Shown here: one piece after another, positions 36,982-40,881 of the stretch
Layout: every line of letters begins with the position of its first letter
How positions within the stretch are numbered: position 1 is the first letter of the stretch
Assembly (NCBI GenBank): GCA_021773435.1
Contig: JAJFKC010000037.1
Coordinates: forward strand, 1-64,000
DNA: 64,000 nt
Direction: 5' to 3'
Origin: Porticoccaceae bacterium
Lineage (GTDB): Bacteria; Pseudomonadota; Gammaproteobacteria; Pseudomonadales; Porticoccaceae
Made by a program: the position numbers and the translations under genes
Notes under the pieces: model-generated
Told to the model about the DNA's origin: nothing
Database searches by the model: none
Seen by the model: only the letters and a program-made list of their open reading frames with translations

Positions 36982-37809
36982 TCAATTTCCCATCGTTATA
37001 TTATTAGACCTTTCTCGCAACCACATCACAAATCCTGTAATGGCAAGTACGACAAATAAAATCGCCATAATATCAACCAGCAATATTCCCCATCTACCGA
37101 CTATCCGACCACTGTGAATATCCAGCAGTAGCCTTTCGACAGTAATCCCTTCGCCGACAAAATGTTTACCTAGTGCCTCAGCTAACGTTGCCGGTGTAGC
37201 TATAGCTTCTGACCAAAGAGTCGTTTCGCTTGCTACACTATTCTGGCTTGCTCGAGATTTATCATCGTCCGGCAAAATAGACCAGGTCAATTTATTGAGA
37301 TCGGCAAGATAATTTTTCTGGCTGTCCGCCAATACCAAACTATATTCACCTGTCCCACTTTTATATCGCCCTAACTTGACCAGAGGCGATGGCAAGCCAT
37401 GAGTCGCCCCCAGCCGTTCAACCAGCTCGTAATCCTGGGTAAATATAATTAATTCCTGGTTGCAACCGACGACGATATGGCCCTGATCCGACAGTTCTAC
37501 CGCGCCAAAAAGCTCGCCCCTGCAATGAGCAATTTCACGGGTATCAAGGAAAACCTCACTGCCAACGCGAGTGATAGTTTGCTTTCCCACCGAATAGCTG
37601 AGCAATACTTCCGGTTGACGAATTCCATACCAATTTAACAGCGCGGATGAACTAAGTGTACGGCTATCAAGATGCCAATCGATGGCATGGTTAAGAAACA
37701 GGCCCGTGGTAGCAAGGATCAACACAAAACCGGCAGCACTTAAACCGACACGCCGATGCCAACGCTTGAGCAAGCTTGTTTCCTTCTCTGTGATCAGAAT
37801 ATTACTCAT
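36982..37809 (-). CDS. PepSY-associated membrane protein, putative redox component
   Basis: A 275-residue protein with about two to three membrane helices: one near 20-40 (VGLSAAGFVLILATTGLFLNH) and a final hydrophobic stretch near 240-262 (LVDIMAILFVVLAITGFVMWL). This is the PepSY-TM layout, in which paired helices often carry haem or flavin-linked electrons, with His18, His36 and others as possible ligands. Its start overlaps the FMN-binding gene by 8 bases, so the two are coupled. Relatives serve as ferric-siderophore reductases or respiratory components. Electron transfer to or from the FMN protein is inferred. Confidence 0.8.
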   Translation of the reverse strand: MSNILITEKETSLLKRWHRRVGLSAAGFVLILATTGLFLNHAIDWHLDSRTLSSSALLNWYGIRQPEVLLSYSVGKQTITRVGSEVFLDTREIAHCRGELFGAVELSDQGHIVVGCNQELIIFTQDYELVERLGATHGLPSPLVKLGRYKSGTGEYSLVLADSQKNYLADLNKLTWSILPDDDKSRASQNSVASETTLWSEAIATPATLAEALGKHFVGEGITVERLLLDIHSGRIVGRWGILLVDIMAILFVVLAITGFVMWLRERSNNITMGN

Positions 37810-38422
37810 CTGCTATTGCTTGCTCATTATTGGCTACTTGTTCATTCAGGTAGAGCGCGAATCTTGCCACTCTAATAGAAGCTCTGACGGACAACGTTGC
37901 ACCGGTAATGCCATCGACCGAAGCGCTCAGTTGCAGGTCGTCGTTCTGCAACATTAAACCAATAAATTGTTGCGTAAAAAATGGGTGCCTGATTTCAGCC
38001 CCACGACTTTCTCGAAACACCAAAACACTGATATTTTCGATTTTTTTGTTTGCGATAACGATGCCCAATGTTATCGGGCGCGTCTTGCCAATCTCATCAA
38101 ATATCCAGGCGGTCCTGCCATCGTACCGCCAATAGCGGACTCGAAAGCCGGGGTAATCCCGATTAAATATTTGCCTGGCCTGTAGTTTGTCAGCGTCGCT
38201 TAACCACAGCGCTTGCATTTCAGGGTCGGAACCAGCGCCAAACGATTGTTGCAGGAATTCTTCAGCACTCAGGTATTGACCTTTCGCTGCCGCCTCGTGA
38301 GCACCTATTAATAATGCAAACGACAAAAGTAACCGGCGGACGCTTCGAACACTCTTTACCATCACTGACACTAAAGTCTGACTATGTATTACTCGGGATG
38401 AAGTGATTTTTGGCATCATCAT
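37802..38422 (-). CDS. Exported FMN-binding domain protein with a flavinylation motif
   Basis: A 206-residue protein with an N-terminal hydrophobic export segment (about 30-46, ending HEAAAKG) and a C-terminal FMN-binding domain. DGITGATLS (170-178) matches the D-x-x-T/S-G-A-T consensus at which ApbE links FMN to the final threonine (Thr176 here). The domain would therefore sit in the periplasm with covalent FMN. It overlaps the PepSY gene and follows the porin gene by 38 bases, which contain a hairpin over its Shine-Dalgarno sequence. A later start at 38362 is possible. No apbE is in the window. Confidence 0.85.
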   Translation of the reverse strand: MMMPKITSSRVIHSQTLVSVMVKSVRSVRRLLLSFALLIGAHEAAAKGQYLSAEEFLQQSFGAGSDPEMQALWLSDADKLQARQIFNRDYPGFRVRYWRYDGRTAWIFDEIGKTRPITLGIVIANKKIENISVLVFRESRGAEIRHPFFTQQFIGLMLQNDDLQLSASVDGITGATLSVRASIRVARFALYLNEQVANNEQAIADE

Positions 38423-38425
38423 ATA

Positions 38426-38444
38426 ACTCGTCCTAACGACGAGT
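38426..38444 (-). promoter_or_regulatory. Intercistronic hairpin covering the FMN gene's RBS
   Basis: ACTCGTC/GACGAGT form a 7-bp perfect stem with a 5-base loop, between the porin stop and the FMN-binding gene start. In the mRNA the 3' arm contains AGGACGAG, the best Shine-Dalgarno candidate for that gene, so folding would hide it. It may also stabilise or attenuate the porin message. Confidence 0.45.
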
Positions 38445-38460
38445 ACAAACCACCCAGCAT

Positions 38461-39681
38461 CTAGTAACTCCAGCCGACTCCGAGATTAAAGCTATCACCG
38501 TCGCCATTGCGCTGGTTAGCCCAGTCCATCTTAAGCACGACGTTTTCCACCAGCCAAAAGTTAAGTCCGAAATCAATTTGTTCGATCTCGGTATCCATAT
38601 TGATCAGGGCGCTGTCGCCAGCATTATTATCCCATTCGCTGTATCGAGCGAATAAGCCCAGCCTTGGAGTTATACGATACGAAGGCTCTATATACCAGCC
38701 TTCCTGCTGATCGCGACCCAGGGCTTTGGCCTCGTCACCATCGATATCCCACATGGCATACAAACTCCGCAATCCAAAGTCACCGGCCTGATAGGCTAAA
38801 TGACCTTCCCACAAGAATGCGCTGGCATCGTCCATGCCCAGGCCCTGGGCGATATCATCCTGATGCTGCACCGTTAAGCCCATCTCCAGTCCGCTGATCC
38901 CGGTATATTTTAGTCGCGCTGTATAGGCAAGCTCTTCAGCCGTGGCCTTACCCACCTTTTGTCGACCATCCCTGACCATGAATGCCTTGCTGCCCGTTAT
39001 GGGTGTATTCAGTCCGCTGTGTGCTGCCAGATTGTAGGTAAGGCCCGGCGCCAGTTCGCCACCGACCATGAGCCCCGCTTCCCACCAGGTGGCCGGGATG
39101 ATATTTTTTTCGACCGGATTACGCTCAACGCCATAAAAGGTATCGGGTTCGTGTGTCTGATTAATAATACCAACGGGGATCAGAAACTGGCCAATTGTAG
39201 CGGCGTGATGTTCAGCAAAATCCCATTCGATAAATGCCTGTTCAAGCTCGACTTCACCGGTCTTACCTTCGCCTGATATTGAGTGCTCCAACTCAATCTC
39301 GGAAAAAAATCGTACATCCTCAGTAAATTCATGCTCGGCAAAAAACACAAATCGATGGGCATCAACCTCATCGGTTTTGCTGTTCTTTTTGTTGTTATAG
39401 TGCAACTCACCGTAGCCACCCAGGTGGGTTTTGTCGGCCCACTCAGCCACTTTGGCATAGCCTTGAGTGGCGGTTGCGACAGTTTCCACAGCACCTGCAG
39501 TTGCTTCTACCTTCTGATTAGTATGAGCTAATTGTTTTTTTAGCATTTCTATTTCGGCTTGCTGCGCCTTGAGCATCTTCATCACATCGGCAATGGTCGC
39601 TGCATCTGTAGAAGTGTAAGCAAAGCTACATACAAGACTCAGTGCAGCACCAGTGATCGTGGTGAACAATTGCTTTTTCAC
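38461..39681 (-). CDS. Outer-membrane porin with N-terminal coiled coil
   Basis: A 406-residue porin. It has a signal peptide (about 1-27, ending TDAA), a short coiled coil (VMKMLKAQQAEIEMLKKQLA, 33-52, continuing to about 70) and then a beta-barrel rich in alternating aromatic residues, ending with the usual C-terminal aromatic (GWSY). The layout resembles DcaP / phosphate-selective-like porins with a trimerising N-terminal helix. As first gene of the operon with the FMN-binding and PepSY proteins, and with a Fur-like box over its -35, it may admit an iron-related or redox substrate. Substrate unknown. Confidence 0.87.
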   Translation of the reverse strand: MKKQLFTTITGAALSLVCSFAYTSTDAATIADVMKMLKAQQAEIEMLKKQLAHTNQKVEATAGAVETVATATQGYAKVAEWADKTHLGGYGELHYNNKKNSKTDEVDAHRFVFFAEHEFTEDVRFFSEIELEHSISGEGKTGEVELEQAFIEWDFAEHHAATIGQFLIPVGIINQTHEPDTFYGVERNPVEKNIIPATWWEAGLMVGGELAPGLTYNLAAHSGLNTPITGSKAFMVRDGRQKVGKATAEELAYTARLKYTGISGLEMGLTVQHQDDIAQGLGMDDASAFLWEGHLAYQAGDFGLRSLYAMWDIDGDEAKALGRDQQEGWYIEPSYRITPRLGLFARYSEWDNNAGDSALINMDTEIEQIDFGLNFWLVENVVLKMDWANQRNGDGDSFNLGVGWSY

Positions 39682-39767
39682 GGATAATTACCCCTAATTT
39701 GCTAATACCTTAAATTCAAGTGTGCTGAAGTAAAATCCGTCACCACATCATGTCAAATTAACGCGGG

Positions 39768-39796
39768 ACAATAATGGCATCAGATTCTAAATGCAA
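39768..39796 (-). promoter_or_regulatory. Candidate promoter of the porin/FMN/PepSY operon
   Basis: On the minus strand TTGCAT (39796-39791), a 17-base spacer and TATTGT (39773-39768) form a plausible sigma-70 promoter. The -35 hexamer lies inside the Fur-like box, so repressor binding would block polymerase. Confidence 0.4.
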
Positions 39797-39808
39797 CTAA
39801 TTATCATT
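39790..39808. promoter_or_regulatory. Fur-like operator between porin and multicopper oxidase genes
   Basis: AATGCAACTAATTATCATT has an intact right half (ATTATCATT) and a weaker left half of the Fur consensus. It sits about 109 bases before the porin start and 92 before the oxidase start, in their shared intergenic region. Iron control of one or both genes is inferred from the site alone. Confidence 0.42.
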
Positions 39809-39900
39809 CGCGTTTGATTTAGATCAATGCCATAATGTCAACAATGCCCATAATCTTGGGTAGTCAAGTTATCAACCATTTACTATTGGAGCGCCGTCCT

Positions 39901-40881
39901 GTGCTACTCATGCAGTCTTGTTTGCGAATTGGAATCCTGTGTTTTTTATTAATAGGTGCAGTGCATGCTGACCAAACTCGCGAATACTGGATCAGCGCAG
40001 AAAAAGCAGTTTGGGATTACGCGCCGGGTGGCAAAAACCTGATCCAGCCAAAAATGGGACTTGGCGTCTGGGGAGAAACAAGGGCTTATAACAAATACCG
40101 ATATTTTGCTTATACCGACGCCTCCTACTCCACAAAGATCAAACAGCCTGAGTGGATGGGAATTCTCGGCCCTCAGCTCACGGGCGAAGTCGGCGATACC
40201 CTTAAAGTGCATTTCAAAAACATGGCCGACCGACCTTTGTCTATGCATCCCCACGGCCTGCGTTACAATGAAGATAATGACGGTGCCGACCTGCGCGGCG
40301 CGGGTGGCATAGTCGAGCCAGGGAGAAGTTATACTTATATCTGGCAACTCGATGATAAAGCCGGCCCCGGCCCTAACGACGCATCCTCTATCGTCTGGGT
40401 CTACCACAGCCACGTGAACGCGGTTGAAGAGGTTTATGCAGGCCTAATCGGCACCATCGTCGTCACGGCCAAAGGCATGGCTAAATCCCCGCAGGACCCA
40501 AGCCCTAAGGATATCGATCACAGTTTTACTACTATGTTTATGGTCTTTGATGAGGAGGACGGCGAAGAAGGTGGCCTGATGCACAGCATGAACGGCTATA
40601 TTTTTGGCAATTTAAAGGGCATTGAAGCAACTCAGGGTGACCGAGTCAGATGGCACCTCATCGGTATGGGTTCTGAGGTCGATTTGCATACCGCCCACTG
40701 GCACGGCGAAACCGTTCTTAATGGCGGACGACGCACCGATGTGATCAACCTGATGCCAGCCACTATGACATCCGTAACCATGGAGGTAAGTAATCCCGGC
40801 ACCTGGTTATACCACTGTCACGTTTCTGACCACATCACCGCCGGTATGATTACGCGGTGGCAAATTCAAGCTAAAAATTAA
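39901..40881 (+). CDS. Ceruloplasmin-like two-domain multicopper oxidase
   Basis: About 326 residues from a GTG with GGAG 9 bases upstream. A signal peptide follows (cleavage near AVHA-DQ). Two cupredoxin domains carry four HxH copper motifs: His116/118 (HPHG), His169/171 (HSH), His266/268 (HWHG) and His305-Cys-His307 (HCH). The type 1 site is complete only in domain 2 (His263, Cys306, His311, Met316), so this is a trimer-forming two-domain oxidase type. Blocks such as YTDASY, ILGPQL, EVGDTLKVHFKN and HSMNGYIFGN are close to vertebrate ceruloplasmin/hephaestin. Ferroxidase activity is plausible. Earlier ATG at 39835 lacks an RBS. Confidence 0.85.
   Translation: MLLMQSCLRIGILCFLLIGAVHADQTREYWISAEKAVWDYAPGGKNLIQPKMGLGVWGETRAYNKYRYFAYTDASYSTKIKQPEWMGILGPQLTGEVGDTLKVHFKNMADRPLSMHPHGLRYNEDNDGADLRGAGGIVEPGRSYTYIWQLDDKAGPGPNDASSIVWVYHSHVNAVEEVYAGLIGTIVVTAKGMAKSPQDPSPKDIDHSFTTMFMVFDEEDGEEGGLMHSMNGYIFGNLKGIEATQGDRVRWHLIGMGSEVDLHTAHWHGETVLNGGRRTDVINLMPATMTSVTMEVSNPGTWLYHCHVSDHITAGMITRWQIQAKN

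Follow-up and report, generated by a model that had tools for sequence, protein, structure and literature searches.

A putative ferroxidase beside a probable iron-reduction operon

We describe a four-gene locus at positions 36982–40881 of a 64,000-nucleotide window (positions 1 to 64,000 of contig JAJFKC010000037.1, GenBank assembly GCA_021773435.1) from a bacterium of the family Porticoccaceae in the Gammaproteobacteria. An operon for an outer-membrane porin, an exported flavin mononucleotide (FMN)-binding protein and a PepSY membrane protein diverges here from the gene of a secreted multicopper oxidase (MCO). On balance, we favour the reading that this is an iron-assimilation locus, probably under Fur control, in which Fe(III) would first be reduced, the MCO would then re-oxidise the product, and an FTR1 permease or an Fbp-type transporter would import it. 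The gene content, its conservation, the residues concerned and the absence of the usual ferrous importer, FeoB, from this genome were observed directly. For the roles as reductase and ferroxidase there is good inferential support, and we hypothesise that re-oxidation is coupled to uptake through FTR1 or Fbp.

The multicopper oxidase and its predicted iron site

The MCO gene (39835–40881, plus strand; 348 amino acids) encodes a protein with the Pfam domains Cu-oxidase_3 (4.5e-17) and Cu-oxidase_2 (2.4e-14). Its true start is probably the ATG at 39910 rather than 39835, followed by what on inspection appears to be a signal peptide (MQSCLRIGILCFLLIGAVHA); this start leaves about 228 bp between the start codons of the porin and the MCO. 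An initial annotation, made by a model from the DNA letters, had called the protein ceruloplasmin-like, and a phmmer search against the PDB agrees: ceruloplasmins rank at the top, followed by coagulation factors V and VIII and then by two-domain laccases, and the best single stretch of ceruloplasmin scores 119 bits compared with 71 bits over the whole protein for the best two-domain laccase. Judged by its sequence, the MCO is a true two-domain homologue of ceruloplasmin, the iron oxidase of human blood.

In ceruloplasmin Fe(II) is bound by E935, H940 and D1025 of domain 6 together with E272 of domain 2, and a matching second set consists of E597, H602, D684 and E971 (PMC11817551, PMC3738974). 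The alignment places E245, H250, E281 and D332 of the MCO on these Fe(II)-binding residues, and all four are invariant in 53 of 53 bacterial relatives, although approximately one third of all alignment columns is equally conserved, so that the invariance supports a function at this site and does not prove it. All copper ligands of the type 1, type 2 and type 3 sites are present as well and are invariant over the 53 relatives save for one substitution at one trinuclear-site histidine. Because E272 of ceruloplasmin is contributed by a neighbouring even domain, in the two-domain protein the adjacent subunit of a trimer would have to supply E281, and the MCO presumably forms a homotrimer. Taken together, a ferroxidase role of the MCO is well supported by inference from its sequence.

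The porin–FMN–PepSY operon

The open reading frames of all four genes are present at the expected positions, and together with their Pfam families they bear out the arrangement originally proposed, i.e., an operon of three genes on the minus strand (39681–36982) diverging from the MCO on the plus strand. The first gene (39681–38461, GTG start) encodes a porin of 406 amino acids belonging to the Porin_O_P family (PF07396, 7.5e-12). It is separated by 38 bp from the gene of the exported FMN-binding protein (38422–37802; 206 amino acids, with an alternative start at Met21, position 38362; FMN_bind, PF04205, 4.8e-7), which in turn shares 8 bp with the gene of the PepSY protein (37809–36982; 275 amino acids; PepSY_TM, PF03929, 4.6e-14, with PepSY_TM_like_2 also matched).

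The flavinylation motif of the FMN-binding protein, DGITGATLS, is intact, as had been noted before. Among 20 relatives its D170 and GATLS core show no variation, and neither does a RESRG motif. The protein found no matches in the PDB (phmmer) or among plasmids (tblastn). The genome encodes a single ApbE, located away from the operon on contig C5, which also holds a stronger FMN_bind gene. In the PepSY protein His18, His41 and His232 are invariant among 20 sequences. Its AlphaFold model, which is of moderate confidence (predicted local distance difference test score 71), has two long helices (residues ~8–42 and ~239–273) flanking a beta-rich domain that is presumably periplasmic. A fold search of this moderate-confidence model against the PDB gave no match at E ≤ 0.001 and weak beta-propeller-like matches; in sequence, FoxB (7abw) shows a weak likeness to the protein in the first and last helices (E 0.095). 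We consider the protein probably to be a haem-binding carrier of electrons in the membrane.

A search with the FMN-binding protein matched 70 of 295 genomes of the same order, 66 of them strongly (E < 1e-20); of 369 genomes from the class, 84 matched. In nearly all loci examined the FMN gene lies between the porin and PepSY genes in the same order, and because this order is kept at protein identities of 25–60%, the three genes form a conserved unit. The three-gene operon is thus common in Gammaproteobacteria. Its neighbours point to iron. The string fur-feoA-feoB-porin-FMN-PepSY occurs on a single strand in our loci L183 (5373–11181) and L182 (3949–9699; its porin was taken from the raw reading frame), and feoA-feoB-porin-FMN-PepSY, likewise on a single strand, in L184 (4685–9676), while in L076 feoB adjoins the module divergently. 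Elsewhere, genes for bacterioferritin, bacterioferritin-associated ferredoxin, Grx4 and peroxiredoxin are found next to it. In view of these strings and neighbours, and of the enrichment of Fur-like boxes described below, the module is very probably one of assimilatory iron reduction. Published accounts of related PepSY systems are in agreement with such a role (PMC8238504, PMC12004947).

The intergenic control region

The intergenic region contains a Fur-like box (GCGAATGATAATTAGTTGC, 39793–39811, minus strand) that matches the Fur consensus at 13 of 19 positions, a score that is unremarkable taken alone. Cross-species alignment gives it more weight: the box is the single strongly kept intergenic block across six divergent four-gene loci, the window included. 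Of 44 stretches upstream of the porin, 61% contain a Fur-like match of at least 13/19, compared with 8.5% of stretches drawn at random from these loci; some loci enter this count twice, at different lengths. The genome contains one perfect copy of the box pattern, the intergenic one. With up to 3 mismatches, 9 matches were found against 7 for a reversed control, and the others that were inspected lie outside recognisable iron-gene promoters; hence the pattern by itself proves nothing.

The candidate porin promoter on the minus strand consists of a −35 element TTGCAT (39796–39791), a 17-bp spacer and a −10 element TATTGT (39773–39768), and the −35 element overlaps the Fur-like box, just as the initial annotation had described. 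By eye, TTGCAT or TTGTAT stands equally far from the box in the aligned loci. A sigma-70 scan was uninformative, with sites no more frequent than expected by chance, which leaves the alignment between species as the sole basis for assigning the promoter. The genome encodes a Fur protein and, from its sequence, the locus is probably Fur-controlled.

At 2 bp from the Fur-like box lies a perfect FNR/ANR-like palindrome (TTGATTTAGATCAA, 39814–39827, plus strand), the sole perfect copy within the window. Among the divergent loci it is perfect in L089, carries one mismatch in L085 and L086 and is absent in L087 and L092. Control by oxygen through an FNR-type palindrome would suit an oxygen-dependent oxidase, although this is speculation on our part.

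Distribution of the oxidase and the absence of FeoB

A scan of 84,980 species for the MCO yielded 53 loci, ten of which hold close relatives of gammaproteobacterial origin with identities of 62–83% (L085–L093 and L133). The MCO is, therefore, much rarer than the three-gene module. It stands beside the module in six other genomes, divergently in L085, L086, L087, L089 and L092 (the last complete only up to the contig edge, which falls within the FMN gene) and downstream on the same strand in L090; the four genes are thus conserved together in two gene orders. In L088 no module lies near the MCO despite ample flank, but it is present elsewhere in that genome; the FMN gene is likewise encoded in the genomes of L093 and L133. 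Overall, the FMN gene occurs in nine of the ten genomes with a close MCO, compared with 66 of 295 genomes (22%) of the order (binomial p 1.1e-5, with no correction for relatedness). In the tree, six of the seven module-linked MCOs group closely, with that of L092 separate.

In a set of 80 chosen genomes, 1 of the 10 that carry both module and MCO has FeoB, as do 32 of the 45 with the module only (Fisher p 0.0006, phylogeny ignored). Over all MCO-carrying genomes its count is 1 of 21, whereas all 8 module-only genomes sampled in the window's own family possess it. The present genome, which lacks FeoB, encodes an FTR1 permease with REVLE and REGAE motifs (C23:174954–175715). Directly upstream of it is a gene for a cupredoxin (PF13473), and a strong Fur-like box precedes the pair, which forms an FtrB/FtrC-like operon (L174:8895–10108, on contig 23 of our genome G000). 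This arrangement with its box recurs in four relatives and the cupredoxin–FTR1 pair in two more. Fbp as a general outlet was rejected for the present genome, in which no FbpA relative was found at E < 1e-10.

Relatives of the MCO in other phyla

In Poribacteria the MCO is followed by an FbpA-like protein, whose best PDB match is a ferric-iron-binding protein of FbpA type (E 1e-100), and by a two-part permease. Such an FbpA-like protein, mostly with an ATP-binding cassette (ABC) permease, was found in L094–L096, L099, L100, L102–L104, L106, L127 and L135, and L100 also has the ATPase. In ammonia-oxidising bacteria (nitrifiers) the MCO relative often lies beside or close to bacterioferritin (L105, L107, L108, L111, L113, L114, L121, L122 and L136), and in many cases a DUF2325 gene separates the two or is found in the vicinity. 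One Nitrosospira MCO locus (L123:11068–14770) holds a possible DUF4198 protein, just under the Pfam cut-off, and a downstream TonB-dependent receptor.

A proposed route for iron

In the pathway that we propose, small, perhaps anionic, iron chelates would enter the periplasm through the porin, which is a guess. The PepSY protein, probably as a haem-binding dimer, would pass electrons across the inner membrane to the FMN-binding protein; the latter, with its flavin covalently attached, would reduce Fe(III), as suggested by its family, its motifs and the operons shared with feoAB. Most relatives would import the resulting Fe(II) by FeoB. In the lineage without FeoB, the divergent ceruloplasmin-type MCO would re-oxidise it, with Glu281 of the neighbouring subunit completing the iron site in the trimer as Glu272 does in ceruloplasmin, and the Fe(III) would be imported by FTR1 together with the cupredoxin, a task that an Fbp-type ferric ABC transporter would perform in some relatives.

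The initial annotation had suggested periplasmic reduction and re-oxidation of iron, or of another metal or siderophore, during uptake. For iron this is the best-fitting reading and it now has a concrete candidate outlet in FTR1; the link to iron draws on the fur-feo strings, feoB beside the module in L076, the conserved boxes, the FbpAB and bacterioferritin neighbours and the iron site shared with ceruloplasmin. Several points, however, limit the support for this reading. The MCO is a rare add-on, with a close relative in 3 of the 295 sampled genomes of the order, and the likely core promoter of the MCO is located downstream of the Fur-like box, which makes control of the MCO by this box uncertain. 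FTR1 is encoded at another locus than the MCO and the module, and the iron oxidase might instead be the cupredoxin beside it. At a threshold of 80 bits, which was picked after the data had been seen, FTR1 was found in 7 of 10 genomes with module and MCO compared with 2 of 45 with the module only; for any FTR1 above the Pfam cut-off the counts are 7 of 10 and 20 of 45, which is not significant (p 0.18). Three of the ten genomes have no FTR1; two of these have FbpA and one has neither, and importers of Fe(II) other than FeoB are possible. Finally, the Fisher tests take no account of phylogeny, the comparison set includes several genomes that seem to come from a single family (Porticoccaceae), and several of its members are metagenome bins of unreported completeness.

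Alternative explanations have to be weighed against this. The operon could be an assimilatory iron reductase beside which the MCO is merely a protective ferroxidase, clearing excess Fe(II) from the periplasm and so preventing Fenton chemistry, or readying iron for storage, and not feeding uptake. The bacterioferritin genes next to the MCO relatives of nitrifiers would fit such a role, as would the divergent rather than co-operonic position of the MCO in most four-gene loci and the distance of the Fur-like box from its core promoter. We nevertheless think it unlikely, since in Poribacteria the MCO relatives are followed by genes for ferric ABC transport, and where the MCO is present FeoB is absent, so that reduced iron needs another route. 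A different task of the FMN–PepSY pair in the periplasm (respiratory, siderophore-specific or directed at another metal), with iron control explained by haem or metal content, is improbable in our judgement. PepSY proteins do take part in the use of ferrisiderophores (HiuB, PMC12424826) and in copper handling (CrpH, PMC13038864), but the module occurs in strings with feoA-feoB and fur, in other genomes it lies near genes for bacterioferritin, the associated ferredoxin and Grx4, and no TonB receptor gene was recognised in the operon.

Still less credence is due to a copper-detoxifying (CueO/CopA-like) or laccase-like oxidase whose place beside the operon is inherited synteny. It is true that the copper sites are common to all multicopper oxidases and that some relatives also share the neighbours hspQ, on the opposite strand past the far end of the operon, and an SDR gene behind the MCO, so that the linkage is partly one of common descent. 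However, the sequence falls in the ceruloplasmin family, the Fe(II) site is complete in every one of the relatives, and no copper genes were recognised adjoining the MCO. The association with the module also exists in another gene order (L090) and other iron genes accompany the MCO in other phyla. That the MCO mainly confers copper resistance was considered and rated low, and passive synteny as the full explanation is inadequate because of the different gene order in L090.

Comparison with known systems

Among the systems closest to the porin–FMN–PepSY module are the PepSY-like flavinylation-associated systems, in which a membrane protein of the PepSY type is likewise paired with an exported protein that is flavinylated. 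A role in iron reduction has been proposed for them and, in Shewanella and Caulobacter, they have been reported to be under Fur control (Meheust et al., 2021, PMC8238504). Those systems have DUF2271/DUF4198 substrates, a PepSY protein with three helices and apbE in the cluster, whereas here an FMN_bind protein without such partners is combined with a two-helix PepSY protein and ApbE is encoded elsewhere. The porin and the MCO are additions relative to these systems; the main text of that paper mentions neither "multicopper" nor "porin". A Fur-regulated locus of Caulobacter belongs to a related PepSY system (PMC12004947). VciB of Vibrio cholerae (COG3295), by its description in the papers that cite it, is a PepSY-related protein of the inner membrane that is reported to promote Fe(III) reduction and ferrous uptake (PMC8238504, PMC12004947); it has no association with flavinylation genes, unlike the module described here.

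The order of events in the proposed pathway resembles that of fungal Fre-Fet3-Ftr1, i.e., reduction, re-oxidation by a copper ferroxidase and import by an FTR1 permease (PMC11817551), although here the reductase would be the FMN-binding and PepSY proteins, the ferroxidase is ceruloplasmin-like with two domains and not Fet3, and FTR1 lies elsewhere. In the FtrABCD system of Brucella and others, the FTR1 permease FtrC is accompanied by the periplasmic cupredoxin FtrB, which matches the FTR1 operon of the present genome. FtrABCD has no multicopper oxidase, and the identity of its ferrous oxidase "remains unknown" (PMC11966278). Neither FtrA/P19 nor FtrD genes were recognised beside the FTR1 gene of the present genome in a search confined to that locus, and the operon apparently comprises two genes. 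Ceruloplasmin and hephaestin, the closest solved sequences, have the same Fe(II)-site and copper residues, but they are six-domain proteins, whereas the MCO is a secreted bacterial protein of two domains. Each part of the locus is from a known family; for their combination we found no described system in the open-access text searched.

We tentatively put forward, as a possibility that falls short of being the likelier case, that the reductase module, the two-domain ceruloplasmin-type ferroxidase and FTR1 make up a single pathway, controlled by iron, which takes the place of FeoB in some Gammaproteobacteria, that the same type of ferroxidase is plugged into ferric ABC transport in Poribacteria, and that the whole is a counterpart of the reductive iron assimilation of fungi. 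A ceruloplasmin-type MCO with an intact iron site is a candidate for the ferrous oxidase that drives the FTR1-type permeases of bacteria, and a genetic swap of FeoB against the MCO makes this idea testable. The porin–FMN–PepSY module adds to the known systems of bacterial iron reduction. Moreover, a compact bacterial protein with the full iron site of human ceruloplasmin may serve as a minimal model of this family and would inform its origin.

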